A DNA stretch of 64,000 bases from positions 1-64,000 of the forward strand of contig ML210229.1 of the NCBI GenBank assembly GCA_004369085.1, in the 5' to 3' direction. The notes beneath the pieces were generated by a model. The model was not told the DNA's origin and did no database searches. It saw nothing but the letters and a program-made list of their open reading frames with translations. The stretch is from Coprinopsis marcescibilis. Taxonomy: Eukaryota; Basidiomycota; Agaricomycetes; Agaricales; Psathyrellaceae. How positions within the stretch are numbered: the first letter of the stretch is position 1; the number at the start of each line of letters is the position of its first letter. Below, one piece after another: positions 1 through 56,000 of this stretch. The position numbers were made by a program, and so were the translations under genes.

Positions 1-1857
1 TTGCTAGCAAAACTCCTCCTTTGCTCACTTACCACTTCCTTGAAAGGTGCAGTGATCACATCAAGGTCATGCGCTCAACCCCACTTGAATTGAAGTGCGC
101 AAATGCCATGAATGAGAACAATAATGCAGCATGGTTTGACCTACTCAGGAAGACCCAGAAGGAGTACGACATCAAGGACTGGAATACATATGGCATTGAC
201 AAGTGTGGAATTCAGCCCTATGGTGCTGACTGGGAATATGGTCATTGGTCCCAAGAAGAAAGGGCCTCAATACCAACGACAAGGTGGCAACAGGGAGAAT
301 ATCACCATTCTTGTGACAATATGCAGCAATTGAACAGCCCAGCCTCCAGAGGTCATCTTCAAGGGGAAGGGGTTTCAAGTGAAATGGGCACGGAACAATC
401 CAGTGAATGCATTGTGAGTCTCTGATTGATTGAATGACATCGTTCTGCTGATATCTTATCATTGTACCAGCATTGGGTATTCAGAGAAGGGATGGACCAA
501 CAACACAATCGGCCTTGACTGGCTTAAGCTCTTTGACAGCCAGACAGCTGAGAAGGCTAAGGGCAAGTATTGCTTACTGCTCATTGATGGACACATGTTG
601 CACTACAGTCACAATTTCCTCAAATATGCATGGGAACACAAAATTGTTGTACTCTGCTACCCATCCCATGCTACTCATGTCTACCAAGGACTTGATGTGG
701 TTATCTTCACCACCCTCAAGGTCTGTCTCAGCCAGGAATGTGACAAATGGATGAGGAAACACATTGGCAAGATCAAGAAAGAAAACATCCTCAAGATCTA
801 CAGAAAAGCCCACATTGCCACCCTCACCCCTGAGAACATCAAATCAGCCTTCCAGAAAACAGATGTCATCCCCTTTGATCCCAATGTTGTCACCGCCAAC
901 ATGATGGCACCCAGCCGCCCTACGTCTATTGAGTCAAACCTTCCAGCTCCTCCTGCAACACCCATGAGAATCATGACAAAGTTGCTGCATGAACTGTCAA
1001 TAGAAGACAATACTGGGTTAGCAACAATCAATAAAGACAGCAATGAAGATACACCTCCATTGCCTTCTGATGCCCAAGCAGCATGCCACCAAGAAATCAT
1101 CCAAGATAGTGCTCATCAACTGACCAAACAAACTTCAGTCACCTGCTTGGAAAGGCACCAACAACTTCCAACTCACCCATGTTGCACATTATGCCCCAAA
1201 CCATTTCCCCTTTGGCTCCCCCAACCATCAATACCCTCTCCAACATGCAGCCCACCAACAAGACCAATGCTCTCCTTATTGCAGTGCTGAAGGAGCTCCA
1301 GGGCAATAACAAACATTTGCGAGCGCCCGTGATCCAGATGCAGGTGGTGAGCATCCTAAACAAAGCACACTGCAATATGCTACGATTTCAGCTGATGGAG
1401 AAGGAAAAGGAAGCAAAGAAGGGTAAAGGGAAGGGGTAAACTGATGGGGGATGGACTTCCAAGGCTCCTCTCGGGCAACAAGTTCTTCCAGAGGGTCGTT
1501 GAGTTCACAGAGTGGCAGGAGCAGCAGGAGTAAAAGGGGCATGCTTGAGTTGATGCAAAAGCGGCTTGGCAGGAGGTGGTGAAGGAATGGGAGGAAAGGG
1601 AGGTGGCCTGAAAGGAGGAAAACAAGATGATAACCGGAACTCACCAAGAGAACATCACAAAATGGGAGCATGACAAGGCTGTGGTGAAGAAAACCCAGAA
1701 AACCTTTGATAAACCCAAGCCTAAGCAACCCACCCTTCAGATCAGGAACCAAAGCTGAGATTGAAGGATTTTGAGGCAGCATTGGATGTCAAAGATGTCT
1801 TGGATGATGAGGCTGGCAATTCCAAAGGCAATGGGGCTGAGGATGAGGATCTGTAGC
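1..1857 (+). pseudogene. Decayed pogo/Fot-like DDE transposase, 5' end outside window
   Basis: Remnant of a Tc1/mariner-superfamily (pogo/Fot, DDE_1-type) transposase. Visible pieces are a VIGPKKKGPQYQ segment followed by GGNRENITILVTIC near 230-330, then LLLIDGHMLHYSHNFLKYAW and CYPSHATHVYQGLDVVIF near 583-700, which carry the second catalytic Asp block and the YPSHATHVYQGLD motif typical of fungal DDE_1 enzymes. A Lys/Glu-rich C-terminal tail continues to about 1857. An intron at about 409-477 (GTGAGT..CAG) keeps the frame. The copy is broken: the frame changes near 225-240, there is an in-frame TGA near 328, and more shifts and stops occur after about 1170. The start lies beyond base 1. 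It is best read as an inactive, truncated copy; the family is confident, the exact subfamily is not. Confidence 0.8.
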
Positions 1858-14297: not shown

Positions 14298-15938
14298 TCA
14301 CACACTTTCGTCCCTAACATGAGCCAACGAGACTCTCCAACCCCTCCTCAGCGCCCCAACTCTGCTCCACACACCCTCTCCCCCCCGTTGCATCTGCCTA
14401 ACCAAATCCCCAGAAAACTCCTGCACAACAACATACTCCTGCGTAGAGCTCGCATTCCCATACGACTCCACATAATCCGTGCGGCCAATACTGGGCCCAC
14501 AATACACAAGCACATGCGACACGAACCCATTTCCGCGCAGGAAGCGTAATATCGTCTCTCCTGCTGAGAGGTTCATAATCGCTTCACCACCACCTGCACC
14601 TGCACCGTCCGAAAGGCCCCCACTCCCGCTGCTCAGCGGCTCGGACTCATACCTCGTATTATCCGTCACAAAGCGTAAAAGCGCCCTAGCTTCAAGCCGT
14701 CGCAAATGGTCTAAGTCGAAACTTCAAGCTCCAAGCTTCAACTACAAAACACAGTTGTACTCACCTTCATACGTCTTGATCCACAGCTTTGCGGCGTACG
14801 TCGAGGGCAGGAGTACGACCCGGATGCCCAACGACTTTGCATGCTCAACTACGTCAGTCACATTCTCCGGATGATCATCTACCCAAACAATCGTCGGTTC
14901 GAGCAAGACGTCCTCGGAATTCACCTTCCCAACCCGTTCCTCTCCATCCCCAAACCCTTTATCTTTCGAGCAAATATTCTCAATCTGCAACAATCGACCT
15001 CCACGCGCCGGAGCTCTCACCCCAGATCCTACAACAAACAATTCAGTTTCATTTTCAGCACCACATCACCTCCCACCAAACCAACAGAACGGACATAACA
15101 TACCATTCCGAGATCGCAGTTCAGCCACATACCCAAGCACCGTCCTGCCCCCAACAACCCCAACAACCCTCCTCTTCAAAAACACACCCAAATCCTCCGG
15201 ATCAAGCTCGATCGTCAAAGACGCAACCACCACATAATCCACGCTCTCCCTGATCCACGCCCTGACAGCAGCCAAAAGCTCTCTCGGGCTCGCATACTCC
15301 ACCTACACGGCCATTATCAGTCCACACACACGCTAGTAAACAGGCAAGACCCAACACACCTCTTCCCCAATCGCAACATCCCAAAACCGTACAACATCCG
15401 ATCCTCCTGTCTCCTTCTCATTCTCTTTCACCTCACCGTCTTCCACCAAGTCCAAACCCACCCCACCACCCAAAACAACCGCCCGAACCTCCACCTGCAT
15501 CCTAAGCACAAACATCTCCATCCACCTAGACAGCCTCTTCTCATCCTCCTCCAAACTATTCACCACAACCCCCGGATTCACAAACTCCATCAAGCGCCCA
15601 AACCTAAACTTGGCCGAATACAACGAAAGGTGCTGGCGGATCCCGCTCAGTATCTCGGCCAGTTCGAGGAAGAGGGTCGTATAGCGATGCAAGTTGCAGC
15701 GGAAGCTCGAGTTGGACGGCGCTAAATCCCTATTCATTTTGGGTCCCAGCTTTAAACCTTCACTATCCTTATCACCACCACCACCGCCAAAAACAAAAGG
15801 CTGCAAAGTCTCCAACAGCGCCTCCATCCTCCACCGCAGCTGCTTCAGCTTCTCCTTCTTCGTGTTCAGATCTTCGATCGCACTATGGATCCCGCGCGCG
15901 ATGCCGACGAGATTGACCAGCAAGCCAATAGCATCCAT
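14298..15938 (-). CDS. Helical HeLo/MLKL-like plus receiver-like protein, paralogue 1
   Basis: Predicted 484 residues in four exons (15938-15360, 15302-15104, 15028-14765, 14710-14298) with intron phases 0, 1, 1, identical to the paralogue at 26857-28324. The N-terminal third begins MDAIGLLVNLVGIARGIHS and is a charged helical bundle reminiscent of HeLo/HeLo-like or MLKL-type N-terminal domains of fungal cell-death and STAND proteins. A middle segment starts at VRFWDVAIGEEVEY. The C-terminal third follows a CheY-like alpha/beta order: IVWVDDHPEN supplies an acidic pair after beta-1, LRFVTDNTR an aspartate after beta-3, and HVLVYCGPS resembles beta-4. A Gly/Ser/Asp-rich insert of about 20 residues interrupts it after the beta-3 Asp. 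The domain assignments are inference; the paralogy is visible directly. A function in regulated cell death or non-self recognition is speculative. Confidence 0.6.
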
Positions 15939-25100: not shown

Positions 25101-26856
25101 CTGCCAGGGCCTAGGGCCCAATGGTCAAAAGAAGGCACACCGCCTTCTGGACTATTAATACGGATTACCACTATTACAATACCCTCCGTAAAGACCCCAG
25201 CAACGAGAAGATCCACTGGCACTTCCAACTTCTCCAAGTGTTCTCGTCTCCGAAACTTTGAATAACATCCGACCCTGAGGCCTGAGGCCCAAACGCGCAA
25301 AGAAGGCGTGGCCAACGTAAACACGGCCGCACTTGAAAATCGCACTTATTTATCCACATACATGACCCCAGCAGCGAGAAGAGGGCCAATTACAATTCCA
25401 ACTCCTTCTCTTCCCCCGCAAGTTTTCCGAATTCGAGTGTTCTCGTGTTCGAGCTCTGAATGCATCCGGTCCTGGGACCTGGATGGAAAGAACTTGGTGG
25501 AACCAATTGGCCAACACGGCTGTACCGGACAGTCGTGCTTATCCACGTGTGCGACCCCAACAGCGAGGAGAAGTCCAATTCAACTAACCCTTCCGCAAGT
25601 CTCCTCTGAATAAGACCCAATCATGAACGCAGAAAGACCATGTAGCCAATTGGCCCTTGTGCCGCCGCAGGCCAGTATTTGACTGTGCATTAGCGACGGC
25701 GGACCACGGTGACATCGCAGCTAAATTTACCCCACGCATAGTCAGTCCTACTATTCATTGTCGATCTAGAAACATACATGTACAGCTGTACTATGATCCC
25801 TTAAGTAATTCGGGTCAGTCACCGGTCCAAGTTACCCTCCGCGAAGCCCGACTCGTAACCCAGAGCTCAATAAAATGCTCAGAACGTGTCAGCCGTTAAT
25901 CGGCTCCCTTTCTTCCTCTCCACCGTCTCCAAGCTAGAGGCAAGTATGCAACAAGATGAAGTGCAAGCCTAGGTTTTTCACATCCTTTAGCATCGACTTG
26001 GCTTTTCTGCCTGTCGCTTGAACGACCGTGCCAGTGCAATGGCAATGCTCTTGCTCTTCTGCACTATCGACTTGGAGCCCTGTCTCTCACTGCCCGACTT
26101 CGAGGATCTGGTCCACTTAATGTCAGTTGGAAACACTGATAGTCTTGACGAAGGACACACCGCCATCCCGCGCCTTCCCAAAGTCAATCATACTTTGCTC
26201 TCTGGCATCGACAGGGTCTATGTATAGGCAGTCTCTGAAACAGGTACCGCCCAATCAAACACCGTACCTGAAGCGACTGTCATCACGCTGTGGACACCTG
26301 GCTACGGAATCCACTCTTGCTTAATCTAGCCGCAAAGGGGCGTGAAACGGGGGCGGCATGACATTGTGAAGGGACAACAGCACTTTACAGCCTTATCACA
26401 TCCATATCTTACGGAACCATAGCTCATGTGAACAACTTAGGCGCTCGTTCCAAATCAGGGTCTTGGCAGGTTCCCGACCGTCAAAGGCGATGCCTGTCTA
26501 CCCTGTCCTGCTACTTACCAGGGTGCTCAGTCTATCGGCACAGAAAACAAGACAAGCACTTCATTAATCCATTGTTCTGCGGCCAATATCCTCCGAGGTT
26601 TCTCAGTCCGCTGGCCACCAGAAAAGGTATGCACCAGCGCATTCGGCGTCTTTCCAGTGCTAGTGGTGCGGCATCAACCCGACACAGAGCTATTTCTGTA
26701 GTCCCTCGCTCGTGACTCTGCCACGTTCACAACCAACACCCTCGAACCTAAATCTTCATTAAAAGACGCAGTGCCTGCCTATTCTGTTCTCTTATCGTCT
26801 CACAACAACAACCCTAGAACCCCACTCCCACTGCACACTCAAGTCGTGCCAGTGTA
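22124..26856. other. Gene-poor 4.7-kb region
   Basis: No gene could be supported here. The first 400 bases are the Msb2-like 3' region with T- and G/T-rich tracts. Open frames such as 24225-24716 and 25308-25613 have no recognisable domain, no splice context and biased composition. A diverged tandem repeat lies at about 25190-25640. CCCTAACCCTTA at about 22889 is a single short telomere-like match, not an array. The last few hundred bases are the likely promoter of the gene at 26857. Confidence 0.5.
25190..25640 (+). repeat. Diverged tandem repeat, about three units
   Basis: Three imperfect copies of a segment recognised by CTTATTTATCCAC-like sequence, then GACCCCAGCAGCGAGAAGA, CCAATT-rich sequence and GTTCTCGT-like sequence. 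The anchors (GACCCC..CAGCGAG or equivalent) start near 25190, 25363 and 25552, so the unit is about 170-190 bp. The copies carry many substitutions and small indels. There is no shared open frame, so it is probably old noncoding duplication. Confidence 0.5.
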
Positions 26857-28324
26857 ATGGACGCTTTCAGCCTCCTCACAAACATCATTTCCGTCGCTCG
26901 CGGGATCCACAGCTGGCTCGACCAACTCCAATGCAAAAAGGACAAACTGCGCCAGCTGCAATGGCGCGTCAAAACCCTTATCGACACTCTCCAGCCCCAC
27001 CTCGACCTTCAGAAGCACGACAAACTCCCCAACGATGGGATGATAGACATCTTCCTCGAGCTCGCAGCGATTCTCAGCAGCATTCGCGAGCGGCTCTCCG
27101 TATACCGCGCGAAATTCCGCCTTAGCAAGTTTATGGAGTTCATAAACCCCGCTGTACTGCTGAGTAGACTCGAGGACGATGAGAAGAGGCTATCGAGGTG
27201 GATAGAGCTTTTTTCGCTGAGGCTTCAGGTCAATGCCACGAAGCATGTGGAAACGCTGTTGAGTCTGTCACCAACGACAACCGTCAACAGGGACGCTGTC
27301 ATACATCACTGTAAAGTTGGTGATGTCGTCGAGTTCTGGGATTTATGTGTCGGAAATGATGTAAGAAACGCTTCCTCAGATTGGTCAATGATAAAAGCTC
27401 AAACCCTGATAGGTTGCGATGGCGAGTCCAGCAGAGTTTCTGACTGGGCTGAGATGCTGGATTAGAGAGAACATCGACGAGTTCCTATTCTCTAGCTTGC
27501 TTTCAACGCTTGACCCGGATAATTTGGGATCAATATTGCGCAAGAACCTTGACGCAGAAGTTGGGGATACCTCTCTCAAGCAATACGTGTCCCAGCTGAA
27601 AGAAACACTATCCAATGGTCAGTCACGCTGCATCGCAAGGTACAGGTTGGTCTAACTAGCTATTAGGCGCCGAGCCTCCTTCTCAGAACCTCATGGACTC
27701 GGATGACGACGTCACCGTCGTAGACGAAGACACAACCTCCCACGAAGAGCCCAACGTGCATCCCACACTGGTGTGGATTGATGATAGGATGCAAAATAAC
27801 AAACACGAGATCAAACATGCGGAATCGATGGGTATCCACGTTGTCACTCTCCCTTCAACCGCCGTAGCCAAGCTCTGGATCGAGGAAAACGAGGGTGAGC
27901 TAATTCATATCTGATCCCAGGCGAAAGATCGTGTTGACACGCCATATAAGCGCGACTCCGCGAGCTTGAGAGGACGAACAGCCTCCGGTTCATCACAGAT
28001 AACGCCAGGTGGGAAGGAAGCGAACGAACGCAGATGTTCCTCAACATGACCGCAGGCGAAACAATCCTACGTTTCCTGCGGGGGAAACGTTTGACCTCCC
28101 CGGTGCTCGTGTACTGCGGTGAGAGCGTAGTATGCACCGAATACGTGAAGCTCTATAGTGCAGCAGCATCTACGAAGCAGGCCGATACATGCCTGAAGTT
28201 CCTTGAATACCTTTCCCCCCTAAAGGGTCGCAAAGCGGTTGTGTGGGACGATGAAGAATTCGATGCGGCATGGGACCAAATGTTCTCGATTCGACACGGC
28301 TGGAATATTAACATCTCATCCTGA
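26857..28324 (+). CDS. Helical HeLo/MLKL-like plus receiver-like protein, paralogue 2
   Basis: Predicted 436 residues in four exons (26857-27360, 27413-27617, 27667-27894, 27951-28324), intron phases 0, 1, 1. It is paralogous along its whole length to the gene at 14298-15938. The start is MDAFSLLTNIISVARGIHS, followed by KKDKLRQLQWRVKTL, a helical region to about 160, and a middle segment with FWDLCVGNDV and STLDPDNLGSILRKN. The C-terminal receiver-like part carries TLVWIDDRMQNN (D275, D276), LRFITDNAR (D329), LNMTAGETILRFLRG and SPVLVYCGES. The acidic pair and the later Asp sit where CheY-like domains bind metal and accept phosphate, but no conserved Lys equivalent is clear. It lacks the Gly/Ser-rich insert of paralogue 1. 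The prolyl oligopeptidase gene starts 411 bp downstream on the same strand. Confidence 0.62.
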
Positions 28325-28735: not shown

Positions 28736-31700
28736 ATGTCGCCTTGGGTCCCCAACAAATACCCAGAAACGCGCCGTGGCGACCACGTTGACATCTATAA
28801 GAGCACAAAGGACTACGAGGTCAAGGTCCCAGACCCCTACAGATGGTTGGAAGGCGCATCAGAGGAGATCAACGAATGGACGTCTGCACAAGATGACTAT
28901 ACCCGCAAATACATCGACGATTACCCACATCGTCAGGAGCTTGAAGATGCTTTCCTGGCTAATTACGACTACGCAAAGGTTAGTCTGGATCTGACTTTCA
29001 ACCGAGGTCACAATGAACGAACCTTTTGATAGTTCTCTGCCCCTTACCTCGCAGATAAGAAGCGATGGTATTGGTGGTATAACAGTGGTTTGCAGGCTCA
29101 ATCAGGTCTGTATCACGAAGAAAAATGCGGGTGACTTACTGATAAGTTTTGACTGCCCAGTCTATTATCGATCCAAGGATGGCCAGCTGCCCGATAGGTC
29201 CGATGGCGCCAACAACGGCGACATCTTCTTTGACGTACGTGAATAAATGAACTGAATAGCTGTACCTTGCATAAATCCGTCTTCGCGCAGGTCAATGCTC
29301 TCACTGAAGACGGGACTGCCTCCATCAGTGTTCACGGATTCTCTGAGTCAGGCGAGTACTATGCGTACGGTATCTCTTACTCCGTGAGTCCACGGCAGGA
29401 TTTTCTTCTCAACGACTTCCAGCTGAGACTTATCACGATACAGGGAAGCGACTTTACGACTATCTATGTTCGTCGCGTGGATTCTCCTTTTACCTCCAAG
29501 GAACAACTCACCAATGACCCGGGACGCCTCCAAGACGAGCTGAAATTTGTCAAATTCTCGTCCATAACTTGGACCCCTGACTCGAATGGTTTCTTCTATC
29601 AGGTACGTGATCGATGCATAGAATTCGTTGGCCGTTCTGAGGTCCGCTACAGAGATATCCTGAACCAGAATCTGGTGCACCCGGGATTAAAACAGGCCGT
29701 GATACAAATGCCAAACTTTATTACCATCGAATCAACACAGCACAATGTGCGTCGTCTCCAATAGACAAAGTTGGAGAAAGTATTAACACAGGACACAGCG
29801 GAGGACATTCTTGTTTATTATGACGAGAGTAAGCCCGAGTATATGTATGGAATTCAAGTCACAGACGACGACCAATATGTCGTCCTATATATATCCCAGG
29901 ACACTTCAAAGGTAAATCAACTCAGAACTTTCTCTTAAATAATAAAACAATAACGTCGTTTCAGAGGAACCTACTTTGGATTGCACCTCTAGAACAGGAG
30001 TCTATTGACGCTAGTTTTACATGGAATAAGATGGTGAATGAATTTGAAGCAGGATATAGATAGTAGGTCAAATTTCAGCTCATTCGCTTCATATGGACTC
30101 AAATGATTCTCCACCAAGCGTATCCAATGATGGGCCCATTTTTGTTCTTAAAACCAACACAGGCGCACCAAAGTATCAAGTAGTTACCATTGATACATCC
30201 AAGGACAACATCCTGCAAACATTTATACCAGAATCCGACGCAACATTAATGAGCATATCCCCTGTTAACAAAGGACAGAATTTTGTTGTTGTATACAGCC
30301 GGAACGTAAGTCTACACCACTTCCAATGCAATTTGAGTACTGAGCGGTTGGATAGGTCAAAGACGAAGTTTATATTTACTCTAAAGAGGGCACAGAGATC
30401 TCCCGACTTGTCCCCGACTTTATTGGCAGTATTTCTGTCATTACAGACTTCAAAGACTCTTATTTCTTCGTCACATTGTCAGGGTTCACAACCCCAGGCA
30501 CGTACGGACGGTACGACTTCACGGCCCCGGAGGAACAGAGATGGAGCATCTATAGTACTACCAAGGTTCCTGGCTTGATCCTCGATGAGTTTGAGTCCCA
30601 GCAGGTGCGCAGATGGCTTAGTGCTTAATCTCCAACAACGGGCTTACGAACGACAAACAGGAATGGTATCAAAGCAAAGACGGAACAAAGGTTCCTATGT
30701 TCATTGTTCGTCACAAATCCACCCCTCTAAATGGCACGGCGGCGGCGCTACAATACGGTGGGTGCTGTTTAATTGTATGTTTTACAAGGCTGATGAGCTT
30801 GTGGCACATTTGACACTCGAAAACAGGCTACGGTGGCTTCAATAACTCTATAACACCTTCATTCGGCCCTGTTACCCTTACCTTTTTGAAGATATACCCC
30901 ATCATCTATGTGGTCTGTAACATCCGGGGCGGCGGGGAATTTGGAAAGGAATGGCACGAAGCCGGGTACCGCGAAAACAAAGTACGTACTGCATGGCATA
31001 CTTCAAATGGCCTAAGCTTTCTTACACGTACATTGTATTGACATCGTAGCACAACTGCTTTGACGACTTCATCGCGGGAACGTGAGCATAATATTCCTTT
31101 ACCATTTACGACTATAACACTTGTCTAACGTCCAATGTTGTCAGGGAATTCCTGATCAGGAACAATTTTGCTGCTCCTGGAAAAGTTGCGATTCAAGGAG
31201 GGTCAAATGGAGGTCAGCTAAGACTTTGATCAGAGTGCATGCGTATAATGCTAATAGCTGAGAAGGGCTTCTCGTCTCGGCCTGCGTTAACAGAGCCCCT
31301 GAGGGGACATTTGGCGTCGCCTTGGCCGATGTCGGAGTCCACGACCTTCTTCGGGTAAGCAATAAACAGCATACGCAAGCATGTCGACTCAAGCTTACCA
31401 ACGAGGCCTGTTTCCTAGTTCCACAGATTCACAATTGGTATGGACTAGTTGACTGCTCTGTACAAACCTGGATTTTAACGCAACTACAGGAAAGGCATGG
31501 ACTAGTGACTATGGGGATCCGGACAACCCAGACGACTTCGACTTTATCTATCCCATCTCGCCACTACACAACGTCTCATCGACCAAGGTTCTTCCACCAA
31601 TGTTGCTTTATACAGCGGATCGTGCGTGATTTTCAATCTGATTGAAGTCTGTTAACTTAACACGGAAAACCTTAGATGATGACCGCGTTGTCCCCAGCCA

Positions 31701-32085: not shown

Positions 32086-34665
<2,580 letters not shown>

Positions 34666-47200: not shown

Positions 47201-50200
47201 CCCCCTCGGACGTGGAACCCGTGCTCGCCCCACCATCGATTGGCATAAAAACTTTGCCCGCCTTCGATCTGCCAGTGATGCCACGGCCAAATCCGCTTCT
47301 ACTGGGGACGTGGGCACCCCAGCTATAGCATTGGATATGGTAAGAGCAACTGCTGCTCCCTACGCCGTGGATGGTTTTGATTATGGTGTGGTTGAGGATA
47401 GCATCTTCAAAGTCTCCAAGGTGACTACTGATAGTATGTCGCTTGTCCACCTTAATTATAAAAAAGTGCTCTCTGACATTTATTAGATGCCCCGTCCATT
47501 GCTCAAAAAACCCAGGCATCCTCCGATGCTAGTTCCCCGCCAGAAGACACAGGACTCGACACCGTACTTGTCTACGACCCACTCGATGCATCCTTTACCT
47601 GGTCCTACAAAGGCAGCATACTGCATGATCACGATTCAGTGTCACTCTTCTCACAGCTTGTCTCCTACGTCTTTGGCGTTCCCCACGATTTCTCTGTCAA
47701 CCTGACCTTCAGAACCATCGCATTCCCCTCGTTCTGGCGCGCATTCAGCATCTCTTGCTCGGGTGTGCCTCCTGAAATCACACAAGGTGTTGGAGGGCGT
47801 GAAAAGTATCTGGGGCAAGATTGGAGAATATTCTATCGTTACAAACCTTTCTGGTGGCTTGGTGTTTGGGAAGCTGTTCTAGCGCTGGCATGGAATATGG
47901 GCAAAAGGCTGGTGATGGGCGCTGGGATACGTGTTATAGACTATCTTGTCCAGGTGGGGATAGCAACGTACCACCATTCTTTCTTCATCTGGCTGGCTGT
48001 GAAGGCGGTGAAGACCATCTACCTTGTCGTTTGGCCCACCGCCAAACTTGCTGCCGTCGCTGTCGCCACTGTCGCCAAACCGCAACTTCGTCACGAGCAA
48101 GGTCTAGTCAACACTCTGTCGACTATCCTCTTTGGCGTCCCATGGCTTGTCAAACTGCTCTTCGACTACACGGTCTTTGCGTTCCTGAAACGGACTGTGG
48201 CCCTTGCGGAATTGGCCTATCGGTTGTTGGCGGACTGGGAGTGGTGGATCGACACGAAGGTTCTGGGCTACTTTGTTTTTGGCTTGGTGTGTTTGCTTGC
48301 GTTTGTGGTGCTGGTTTTCAAGTTCCCGCCTGAGGACGAGATCACGATGGAGGATTTGGAAGATTCTTACGACGTCGAGGATCCACTTGGGGACTCTGAT
48401 TCTGAGGGCTATGGCGACGACGACGACTCTACTGCGTCTTTTGGTCGTGTAGCCTCTTATTCACCGTCGGCGGAGGCAACATCAACTCTTGGTAGCTCAT
48501 TGGCGGGGACGGGTGGTGTGGATACCGAGTGGCGGGGAGAGAGTGGGGGAGCGAAGGAGGGCGGGGAGATGGACGTGGACGTGGACGCGGTGGTACATCG
48601 TGGGGAGGCGGTGGATGGTTTTGAGGGATTCGTGGTGGCTGACGCTCCTGCTGCACCTGCTACTGCTTCTGCTGCAGGCACTGATGCTGCTACCACTGGT
48701 ATTCATGCCAGTTGTGAGGAGGCCTTTGCCGAAGTTTCGTTGGGGACGGATGTCCCCGAAATATGGGTATACATTGAGGAAGAGGGTGGTTCTGACGGGT
48801 TCATGGCGGATGATGCTTTGGCTGCTACTGCTGCAGGCACCGACGCTGACGCTGATATTACTGGTGCCTATGCCAGCTGTGAGGAGGCCTTTGCCGAAGT
48901 TTTGTTGGGGACGGATGTCCCCGAAACATGGGTATATATGGAGGAAGAGGGTGGTTCTGAGGGATCTGTTGGGGATGATGCTCTTGCTGCTACTGCTACA
49001 GGTGCTGACATTGATATTGCTGGTGTTCATGCCAGTCGCGAGGAGGCCGTTGCCGAAGTTTTGCTGGGTTCAGGTGCTGCGGAGGGTCTGGTTCAGGACA
49101 CTCCTGGAGGAGCTGGTACTGGTGCTTCAGAGCAAATGGTATGCATTTACCTCTACTCAAAACTTTTTACCTAACCGCTGTCTAGATTGGACGGATGCTA
49201 CTGGCGATGCAAGAACGACTTTGTGCTCACATCGACGAAAAGTTAACCGCCGGTTTGTATATGCAAACACTGCAGGTTCAGAGCCAGTTCAAAATGCTTG
49301 AAGAGACTCACTCTCGCTCTGTGCGTAGCCGTCTATTTCTTCGTAAACTCGGTCATTTCTGATTTTCGGCATTCTTCGTGCAGATTCTGGCTCTTGAACA
49401 ACAGATGGACAGGGTAGAAGCTCAGGTGTGTTGCATGGTTTCTGTCATGATTTGTGTGTTCTAACGTGTGTCTGGCTTCAGAGGTTCCGCCAATCGATCA
49501 GCCCTCAGCCGAAGGTTGGTCAAACCAGTGAAACTGTGGTCAAGGACTTTGGCGTTGTTAACGATGTAAAACAGATGGTGAGTTGGTGTTGAGCTAGATT
49601 GAATTAAGGGTGCAAGTTTTTTTGACACCCTCCTCTAGATTGCCACTGCTCGGAAGGAGGATTCCACGGCACGCGTCCTCTCGACGTCACCACCCACCTA
49701 TGGTACCTTCATCCTGAAGCCTGTTCAAACACCCATGTTTCTACGACCTCCTGCTGCGCCGACCCCCCTCTCAGATCGACTTTCCGCCAGTATTCCCGCC
49801 TTGACAAGGTCCCGACAGCCTATCACTCCACACCAACTCCCCGCACAATCCGGGAATGCATACGACGGTGATAGCTCTTCCGCCGAATCGCTTTTGCCCA
49901 TGTTTGATGATTCGTACGGCTCGGATGGACGTGTGGACATGGATACGCCAGGAAGCTCCCAACCAACCAAGAGTCCACTGGATTTCCTCCACCACCGACA
50001 AAGCTCCAAGCTCGTTTTCTACACCGAAGTTGAACCAAGCTGTAGCACCGGAGATTGTCCTTCCCTGCCTAGGATTATTGACCCTTTACGCTCGTCGGAC
50101 TATTCCGACGTGTTCAAGCCAAGTTCTGACTCACGGGAAGCGAGCGTTATCTCAGATTCGGGTGGGAGTGCCCAGGACAAGAAGGAAACTCATGGGATGA

Positions 50201-52573: not shown

Positions 52574-53065
52574 TTAAGCGTCGAACTCGCGCCTCCAGGC
52601 CTTGCTCCTGAATTGGGGCTCGGGTTCGCGCCTCCAAGCTTTGCTGCGGAACTGAGGCTCGGGTGCAGGCTCAGGTTCACGCCTCCAAGCCTTGCTCCTG
52701 AACTGGGGCTCAGGCTCGGGTTCGCGCCTCCAGGCCTTGCTGCGGAACTGGGGCTCGGGTGCAGGCTCAGGCTCGCGCCTCCAGGCTTTGCTGCGGAACT
52801 GGGGCTCGGGTGCAGGCTCAGGTTCGCGTCTCCAAGCCTTGCTCCTGAATTGGGGCTCTGGCTCAGGCTCGCGCCTCCAGGCCTTACTCCTGAATTGGGG
52901 CTCAGGTTCGCGCCTCCAAGCCTTGCTCCTGAACTGGGGCTCGGGATCTCGCTTGAGGTTGACTGCAACCTCGGCCACATCTCGCTGCGCAACGGGTGCG
53001 GCGCCGGCGAACGTGGTCAGGCCAAGCATGGCGACGAGGATGAAAGAAGGGGAAAATTGGCGCAT
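52574..53065 (-). CDS. Secreted kexin-processed repeat peptide precursor (alpha-factor-like)
   Basis: Single exon, 163 residues. A signal peptide (MRQFSPSFILVAMLGLTTFAGA) is followed by a short pro-region ending in a Lys-Arg site. Then come eight exact copies of the heptapeptide QFRSKAW. Each copy is preceded by Glu-Pro/Ala-Pro dipeptides (EPEP, EPEPEP or EPEPAPEP; the first follows DPEP) and followed by Arg-Arg; the end is EFDA. This is the layout of alpha-factor-type precursors: kexin cuts after RR, and Ste13-type dipeptidyl aminopeptidase removes the X-Pro/X-Ala pairs to free the peptide. Released peptides would start with Gln, which can cyclise to pyroglutamate. Basidiomycete mating pheromones are instead lipidated CaaX peptides, so a mating role is not implied. 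It could be a signalling peptide, or the precursor of a modified RiPP. The frame is open upstream to 53338, but only the ATG at 53065 opens with a signal peptide. Confidence 0.85.
   Translation of the reverse strand: MRQFSPSFILVAMLGLTTFAGAAPVAQRDVAEVAVNLKRDPEPQFRSKAWRREPEPQFRSKAWRREPEPEPQFRSKAWRREPEPAPEPQFRSKAWRREPEPAPEPQFRSKAWRREPEPEPQFRSKAWRREPEPAPEPQFRSKAWRREPEPQFRSKAWRREFDA
52580..52955 (-). repeat. Tandem coding repeats of the peptide precursor
   Basis: Eight in-frame units of 39, 45 or 51 bp differ only in the number of Glu-Pro/Ala-Pro codon pairs. The core is identical at protein level and nearly so at DNA level, indicating recent amplification or homogenisation. Confidence 0.92.
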
Positions 53066-56000
53066 TGTTGGTGAATGGACGTTATCGGTATGTGTATGTT
53101 GTTGATTTGGGGTATAATATGAGATAGACCAGGCTTCTGGCTTGCTGGGTATTGGGACTTGGGAATTGGGTATCGTATCGGCTGGATATGGGTACAAAAG
53201 AGCGTGTGGCGTTTCAAAATCGTTATAAACAAACGGTCGTAAAGTCGTTAGACTCCGGGGTATATCGCGGGTAGCGGTGAAGACAAGAGAGTTAAAAGTA
53301 AAAATAAGACGAGGACAGTTTAGTACAGCTGCAAGCAAGAGAGCTCGAGAGAGAAGAAGATTGTCGTATTAAAACTCCAGCTGAGCTTTGTGTATTTATG
53401 CACCGGGCGCTTATTATACTCGCGCTATCGACATGTCGCGACCAGCCAATAATAAGCACGTGGCTGAGTAGGCGTTGCTGAGGTATCGACGGTCCATGCT
53501 CTGAACCCTCCCTTGTGCTGCAAAAGCTGCAACGCAGGGTCACAATAGGACCATGCTCAAGGCATGGAAACCTAATGGCCCATTGTGGCTGTACATCTTC
53601 TCGAACGTCGGGAGAATGGGGCTTCCGCGGCGCGCGCCCTCTGTTCCACGCGACGATACGGGACATTTGAATGTCATTCTCCCTTTGAACACAATAGAGG
53701 GGGTTGTGGATGGCGACATCGACATTATGATTACAAGCGCATTCATTGACGACGAACGCCTTGTTGGTCGATGGCTACGAGGCTCTATTTGTGACTCAAG
53801 CGTCTCTAAGGCTGGCCGCCGACGCTAAGTTCTCTTCGGTATTCGTGTTCCTGATGACAAGCCTGACGTGACAGCAGCAAAGTACAGAGAGGGATGACGA
53901 GCTCCCCCAAAAGTAAGCACTGTCGCTGTCCATCCGAGTCAAACTCACAATTGCCTCAGCATGAAATCCACGCGGTGCTCCGACCAGCACTAGCCCGGCG
54001 ACCCTCTCTAACGTTCCCAACGGCGCCACGGCTCGAGCCTAATTTGATCCAAGTAAAGAACTTTCAGAAAGCTCAGAACCAAGGCCCGATCTTTCCGCTC
54101 AATATTAGTTCTCGAAGAAGCATACGCACACGCTCATTGGTGACTTGGATGGATGTCCGGATGTCCGTGCGGTGCCCTGTCTCTGCACCGCTGACAGCAT
54201 GTCTGGGAACTGCCTGATTAATGAGTTCGTTTATCTGAATGAACTTCGCGTAGCACTGCTAGATGGCGTGACGAGGATATATATAGGATGTATTTCAAAC
54301 TTGGTGCTGTTTGTGCGGTGCTCGTCGATTGATGGGTCGATTCCTGAGATTTACTGTAACATACTCGGAGTCGCTTAGTAGTTCAAAAATATATAAGTGC
54401 GTAGAAAAGGAAAAGGAAAAGATTTTTGAGCGTACGCCTTGAACCATTATGCACGGCTGAACCTCAGCGAACCAAATATTGACGTCGCATACTACCATCC
54501 CAGAGCTCGGGCAGACCTTGTGACAACCATCCTGCCTCGGGGATGACGCGCGGATTAGCTGAGACGAACGCTGATAACCAACTCAAAACTTACACATGCA
54601 TCTGCATCTGCTCAGGAAACGTGACCTGACATAGTGGTATACACAGCGGGCCCGAGCCATTCAATATAGTTGAGAATGAAAATGGTGGCGCTTTACTTAT
54701 GTAGTGTGAATACACTCCAACGGATCTGTCAAGCGGATGTGGAGGATTTGTAAGTGACAGTGCGAGGGTACCGTAGGACCATCGTATCATTTATAATTAT
54801 GGTGGCGGCGTCAAACTGATGACCACTCACTGCCTGGACGAGAAACATCTACAAGTAGAGTCTAGACAGAGAGTTGAGGGTATGTCACTCAGCTGTTTGA
54901 TTTTGATATTCATGAGGATACATTCTGGCAAAGTGTCAACATGACCAGGCAAATAACACGAGGCAAGGTCTACCGTTCCGCTAGACTCTAGGTTCATCTC
55001 CGGACTAAAATTGGAGGAGAGTGACTGTTTAAGTTATACTTACATGATTGTGGTTTGGCGGGGTCAGGCGGTAAACGCCAACAGCGAGCTTCGGGGAGAA
55101 AGGACCAAGAGAAGAATATAAGCTCGGGGCAGCGAAAGCATAGCGACATTAGCCTGCGCTAAATGGCATGATAGGCAAAAAGGGCTCATAGATCCGTTGA
55201 AGGAGCATGTGCAAAAGTGAGAGCCTAAGCGGGAGAGCGCTGCCGTAAGCGACGCGGACGGCAGTCGAGTGACCAAAAGACCACAGAACAAGTTCCAGGG
55301 GAGCAAAATAGACTTCCTACCTTGACCACGTTCCAACCACGCTGCATATTCTGATTAGAGTTTGGAGTCGGAGTCAGGGATCGGAGACGCCTTGTCCCGC
55401 ATTCCCTGTTTCGAAGCGATCAGCCTCGAGGACAAAGCCTCTTTGCCCATGTAGACGCCAGTCGAGTGCTTGATCTGGATGTTTTTAGCAGAACCCTGGA
55501 AAAAGTTACGTCACGCCTGCAAGAGACATCGTTTTCTCGAGTCTAAGCAGCATGTTGGCAGCCTTGAAGCTGGTGCCACGATGCATAGGAGATGAAAAGT
55601 CTAGTTAGCAAGGGTAATGTTGGACTCGGAAGAAAGAAGTACGGCGTCCATGCTTTTGGAAGACGAAGGAGCCAGAATGGTAATAGTCAGACGGATCTTG
55701 GTGAGCCACGGCCGTTTAAAGCGGCTAAACCTGTCAGAAGCTGCTGGTGGTTTGTTGACTTGGAGCAGGATATGTAAGGAATTCAGGACAAGTCCGAGTT
55801 CAAGGCCGGTGGAGGGTGGGAGATGTGGCTGTGCGCTGGCTGACTAATTGACGGCGCCTTTTACGCTCTGACCAGTGCTGTTGTGTTCTTGCTCGTACCG
55901 CCATAAGCACGCAGAACTTCATCCCCCTTTGTCTTGTCTACAATACGACATCCATTCGTTTCCCATTACCTTACTACCAAAAATCCAGTGCCTTGGTGGC

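Follow-up and report, generated by a model that had tools for sequence, protein, structure and literature searches.

The 64,000-nucleotide stretch of Coprinopsis marcescibilis DNA analyzed here (the window) contains, on its minus strand, a gene that very probably encodes a KEX2-processed repeat protein (KEP) with Ste13 sites. Eight identical heptapeptides, QFRSKAW, lie in its single open frame. The gene call is sound, and the peptide is a good candidate for a processed product. The QFRSKAW core appears to be new, while Ste13-signature KEPs of mushrooms were already known. The gene presents one exact, conserved peptide from a congener of the genetic model C. cinerea. Its features are the following:

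52574..53065, minus strand: KEP gene, 163 amino acids in one open frame, from ATG (53065) to TAA
53000..53065, minus strand: signal-peptide-like N-terminus MRQFSPSFILVAMLGLTTFAGA, read from the sequence, likely cut after AGA
52949..52954, minus strand: Lys-Arg pro-site, from the translation
52916..52936, minus strand: core 1, QFRSKAW
52877..52897, minus strand: core 2, QFRSKAW
52832..52852, minus strand: core 3, QFRSKAW
52781..52801, minus strand: core 4, QFRSKAW
52730..52750, minus strand: core 5, QFRSKAW
52685..52705, minus strand: core 6, QFRSKAW
52634..52654, minus strand: core 7, QFRSKAW
52595..52615, minus strand: core 8, QFRSKAW, then Arg-Arg and the tail EFDA
53113..53119, minus strand: box-like stretch TATTATA, some 48 bases ahead of the ATG, found by eye only

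Translation of the minus strand from 53065 to 52574 gives 163 residues followed by a stop. The precursor starts with MRQFSPSFILVAMLGLTTFAGA-APVAQRDVAEVAVNLKR, continues with eight units made of dipeptide spacers and QFRSKAW, with RR after each unit, and ends in EFDA. The units open with (D/E)P-type dipeptides. At the N-terminus, the hydrophobic stretch FILVAMLGLTTFA (Kyte-Doolittle mean of 2.26 for residues 8-20) is followed by AGA-A. This N-terminus is signal-like, and the precursor is probably secreted. An earlier note on this DNA had described an alpha-factor-like precursor of a basidiomycete, with a signal peptide, a Lys-Arg pro-site, eight identical cores, and spacers of 4, 6 or 8 residues. 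The description is borne out: the host is an agaricomycete (Psathyrellaceae), the anatomy supports the layout, the Lys-Arg site is present in the translated protein, QFRSKAW is exact in 8/8 cores, and the computed spacer lengths are 4, 4, 6, 8, 8, 6, 8 and 4 residues. The placement of the cores between Arg-Arg sites needs correction, as seven of them follow Arg-Arg but the first follows Lys-Arg and Asp-Pro-Glu-Pro. KEPs are defined by an N-terminal signal peptide, for which the hydrophobic stretch is the candidate here, by at least three repeated motifs between KR, RR or KK sites, and by repeats that account for 15% or more of the residues; the eight exact cores occupy 56 of the 163 residues. 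All dipeptides after the Kex2 sites (24/24) are X-A or X-P, the STE13 signature.

At the DNA level, the eight identical heptapeptides take 7 different forms. There are six variable nucleotide columns in the core and two in the Arg-Arg, and none of the real codon differences changes an amino acid, a double AGG/CGC change included. The minimum of 8 changes, if random, would all be silent with a probability between 8e-7 and 2e-5 under transition weights of 1 to 8, in a calculation that takes the changes as independent, which duplication of units may violate. Because all eight variable columns are synonymous, the QFRSKAW peptide looks to be under selection, as had been claimed for the core before: codon variation in core and Arg-Arg is entirely silent. 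With the shared Glu-Pro before the core added, there are nine variable columns. When these single-site changes are read in all six frames, 8/9 are silent in that of the gene (the exception being one half of the AGG/CGC pair), 7/9 in one of the antisense frames, and 0 to 2 in each of the remaining four. The frame does not look like a chance product or a fresh DNA repeat. It is scarcely credible that it arose by chance from a GC-rich DNA repeat, or that the opposite strand is the coding one, since the openness of other frames across the repeat and the tolerance of that one antisense frame stand against a minus-strand frame that has processing sites, an N-terminus resembling a signal peptide and codon variation that is silent throughout, and against a paralogue that keeps the same layout with a different core.

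The paralogue was found in a genome search with the QFRSKAW protein, which gave two matches at E 0.001, the gene itself and a locus on contig C76 (E 1.7e-9, 44% identity, extending beyond a TAA). Genome searches covered 36.3 Mb in 448 contigs, a sequence set that may be incomplete, since the C. marcescibilis assembly is given as 38.91 Mb (PMC10182949). A back-search with the C76 exon recovered the QFRSKAW gene at E 1.5e-5, and an antisense match to the C76 exon itself had an E-value of 0.01.

C76:22299-22838 (L002:1276-1815): paralogous KEP-like precursor, first peptide IFKSSSW, five exact QGGRPNQGRPW

The C76 frame contains VERDP-IFKSSSW-RR-EADP and then the five QGGRPNQGRPW units, separated by RR-EPEADP, EPEANP, EPEADP and EPEAAP. 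QGGRPNQGRPW is exact in 5/5 units, and the 5 variable core columns are all third-position and all silent. Possible GT..AG introns of 68 and 55 bases were read by hand. The unspliced frame is open as well, and the N-terminus of the paralogue is therefore unsettled; the N-terminal pieces of the match align weakly with the QFRSKAW precursor. In both genes together, all 13 of the spacers counted have an even number of residues and 38/38 dipeptides are X-Pro or X-Ala, a count that left out the paralogue's first unit (a single Arg, then just DP). The dipeptides have E, D, A or N as their first residue. Even spacers built of X-Pro and X-Ala pairs are what a Ste13-type dipeptidyl aminopeptidase would require. 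IFKSSSW, in the first slot, resembles QFRSKAW position by position, while the other five units are different, suggesting that the core may have been replaced along most of the C76 array.

Candidates for the processing enzymes are present in the genome. P-domain matches fall on contigs C2 and C6 (four in all, counting exons and not kexin genes). The frame around one of them has its best match to solved Kexin (E 5e-50) and, by eye, has an acidic tail as well as a hydrophobic stretch. On C197, a DPPIV_N gene (three matches) is similar to DPP4 (E 2e-27), and an upstream frame at this locus has a hydrophobic stretch that, by eye, resembles a type II anchor. In the maturation that we propose, the signal peptide would carry the precursor into the ER, and kexin in the late Golgi would cleave after Lys-Arg and Arg-Arg. 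A Kex1-type carboxypeptidase would then take off the C-terminal Arg-Arg, and a membrane dipeptidyl aminopeptidase would strip two to four X-Pro dipeptides and halt at Gln-Phe. The exposed N-terminal Gln could cyclize to pyroglutamate, and each precursor would release eight linear copies of (pyro)QFRSKAW. The computed MH+ values are 922.489 for linear QFRSKAW (2+ ion 461.748) and 905.463 for pyro-QFRSKAW (2+ ion 453.235); for the paralogue's QGGRPNQGRPW they are 1252.629 and, in the pyro form, 1235.603. While the sequences themselves establish the anatomy of the precursor, the silent-only variation of its core, the kexin-type and DPP4-type genes and the paralogue, we infer the processing, the pyroglutamate, the secretion and the function.

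Ascomycete alpha-factor precursors share the Kex2, Kex1 and Ste13 layout with the QFRSKAW precursor. To our knowledge, the QFRSKAW core is unrelated to known alpha-factors. Unlike ascomycete alpha-factor, which has MF_alpha Pfam domains, the QFRSKAW protein matches no Pfam family at E 0.01.

That a basidiomycete has a precursor in the style of alpha-factor holds true, but this had already been described. Basidiomycota KEPs with clear STE13 signatures were reported by Le Marquer et al. (2019; PMC6339444), who suggest hormone-like roles for them. The QFRSKAW precursor resembles these proteins in its probable secretion, Kex2 sites, repeated X-P/X-A dipeptides and repeated cores, and the QFRSKAW core is absent from the main text of their paper, figures and supplementary tables apart. 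A survey by Umemura (2020; PMC7329392) gives a total of 7878 KEPs, spread over 1345 of the 1461 strains; DUF3328 neighbors accompany 22% of these KEPs. A precursor in the genus of our species has been studied by Vogt et al. (2022; PMC9769878), in whose work the C. cinerea KEP 490115, expressed in Pichia, yielded QMRPPSW, QYKAPSW and pyro-QYKAPSW, with cleavage at RR and removal of X-A/X-P. The peptides confirmed within C. cinerea itself stem, according to this report, from precursors other than 490115. The novelty of kind that the earlier note had implied is not supported, with alpha-factor-like basidiomycete KEPs published in 2019 and Trp-ending heptapeptides of a congener in 2022.

The QFRSKAW precursor and KEP 490115 come from the same genus and have RR sites, X-A/X-P Ste13 motifs and heptapeptides (PMC9769878), and QFRSKAW shares with QYKAPSW and QMRPPSW the Gln in first place, the basic third residue and the Trp at the end. 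The two precursors differ in that KEP 490115 contains at least two core sequences, whereas the QFRSKAW precursor has one core in eight copies. A large number of basidiomycete relatives are reported to have a C-terminal Trp (PMC9769878), and the combination that marks this agaricomycete group, a core with C-terminal Trp plus a Ste13 motif, is found in our gene. KEPs of Pleurotus with Ste13 motifs give rise to peptides that were found in the mushrooms themselves (PMC9769878). The -AADW KEPs of Pleurotus and Lentinula likewise have a C-terminal Trp, with peptides in fruiting bodies, and those of Pleurotus have Ste13 motifs as the QFRSKAW precursor does; their cores SGVAADW and SGTGEASAADW are acidic, in contrast to the basic QFRSKAW (PMC9769878).

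Further precursors were sought in the genome with DNA patterns, in scans that are partial and intron-blind and do not amount to a census of KEPs. A W-R-R pattern gave 11 matches, namely 7 in the QFRSKAW gene, 1 in the paralogue and 3 without precursor context (0 in the reversed control). With Q-[FY]-basic-x-x-[AS]-W, which would let Ser encoded as AGY escape, there were 13 matches, 8 of them in the QFRSKAW gene and 5 without precursor context, and again 0 in the reversed control. The pattern Q-x-basic-[A/P/S/T]-P-x-W, modeled on C. cinerea-like cores, matched 9 times in the genome, never in precursor context, compared with 4 matches in the reversed control. A looser three-site pattern was too noisy to use (76 matches versus 41 in the reversed control), and could not catch the C76 paralogue because of its gap limit. 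As QFRSKAW matches the 490115 pattern and the DNA patterns revealed no second such gene, the QFRSKAW gene is a candidate for the C. marcescibilis counterpart of KEP 490115, on the basis of peptide likeness and Ste13 sites.

Protein searches, limited to lengths of 0.55 to 1.75 times 163 amino acids, yielded no relatives. The whole QFRSKAW protein was compared with 5.8 billion proteins, and among the 7989 candidates scored, none reached E 0.001; residues 1-56 gave 2 candidates, none at E 10. The collection includes at least one protein of this contig, the C. marcescibilis arginyl-tRNA synthetase, whose 618 residues are all matched by exact 10-mers from the translated window, and since no similar protein scored even so, the QFRSKAW gene appears to be unannotated. 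Its apparent absence from the protein sets searched implies that proteome-based surveys could overlook it. In a search of the main texts of open-licence papers, no paper contained QFRSKAW, FRSKAW or QGGRPNQGRPW. The core had not been recognized in the earlier note.

With regard to function, the most likely role of QFRSKAW, at about even odds, is that of a secreted signal that serves self-communication or biotic interaction and not mating. A toxin-like, antimicrobial or nuisance peptide directed against other organisms, matured as proposed above, is possible, though we lean against it. Knocking out 6 KEPs of C. cinerea, 490115 among them, is described as producing no phenotype visible in axenic culture, and biotic interactions are the role that the authors favor for these proteins, but they also report synthetic KEP peptides to be without antibacterial activity (PMC9769878), and the QFRSKAW core is short, with a net charge of about +1 to +2 when counted by hand. 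For the signal, a more specific and rather doubtful proposal is that (pyro)QFRSKAW is a hormone for hyphal sensing of self or neighbors via a receptor, with alpha-factor processing employed outside sex. The family would then switch its messages by core replacement, the C76 array carrying the older-type heptapeptide IFKSSSW in its first slot and the new QGGRPNQGRPW in the other five.

The earlier note had also considered the peptide as a substrate of RiPP tailoring, and a mating factor is a further reading. Both roles lack support, because the contig of the gene, C84, has no UstYa match and the genome gave no STE2 match (with a control that was silent too). A dikaritin-type RiPP precursor, its core crosslinked by UstYa (DUF3328) enzymes, would share the KEP layout with ustiloxin precursors, and DUF3328 genes lie near 17 of 76 KEPs homologous to putative basidiomycete pheromones (Umemura, 2020; PMC7329392). 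A UstYa/DUF3328 gene near the precursor would be expected in this case, but the 8 UstYa matches in the genome are located on C59, C72 and C280, and none is on C84 or C76 in an exon-wise search that a divergent gene could escape. In addition, the precursors of epichloecyclins and of toxic cyclic tetrapeptides in ascomycetes are reported to lack Ste13 signatures (PMC6339444). The peptides of KEP 490115 are linear, but they were made in Pichia (PMC9769878), and this evidence weighs less against tailoring because Pichia need not hold the tailoring enzymes. Altogether, we regard a dikaritin-type precursor as quite improbable. Still less probable, to the point of being very hard to defend, is the reading of the gene as a genuine precursor of a mating pheromone, equivalent in role to ascomycete alpha-factor and perceived by a STE2-like receptor. 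The precursor has the layout of alpha-factor, but the STE2 profile had 0 matches in the 36.3 Mb searched (the positive control gave none either), and the 18 STE3 matches are on C24, C40 and C210, with none on C84.

The UstYa matches elsewhere in the genome (C59:34707-36299, C59:105491-108103, C72:68488-71113 and C280:8240-16091) form four groups of two, and two of these groups are oppositely oriented on one contig. They mark candidate RiPP loci in other parts of the C. marcescibilis genome.

Other features were noted in the window:

430-1287, plus strand: gene or remnant of a DDE_1 superfamily endonuclease (transposase)
15336-15938, minus strand, and 26818-27462, plus strand: pair of related proteins, 40% identity
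20053-20930: 21-base repeat, about 42 copies, encoding DPPTTTS-like units within a long open frame
29243-30575, plus strand: prolyl oligopeptidase gene pieces, Pfam Peptidase_S9_N
32784-33113 and 34131-34640, plus strand: GMC oxidoreductase pieces, near the prolyl oligopeptidase
48705-49002: 165-base near-duplicate repeat, 1.8 copies, in an open frame without Pfam match

One of the prolyl oligopeptidase pieces has its best matches to the solved prolyl oligopeptidases 5n4b to 5n4f and to OphP. The KEP lies about 20 kb from this gene; a link between the two was weighed but not upheld, as nothing connects them. In the pair of related proteins, the one encoded at 26818-27462 matches Pfam MLKL_N above the cut-off and the one at 15336-15938 only below it, suggesting that the two possibly carry N-terminal domains of the fungal cell-death type.
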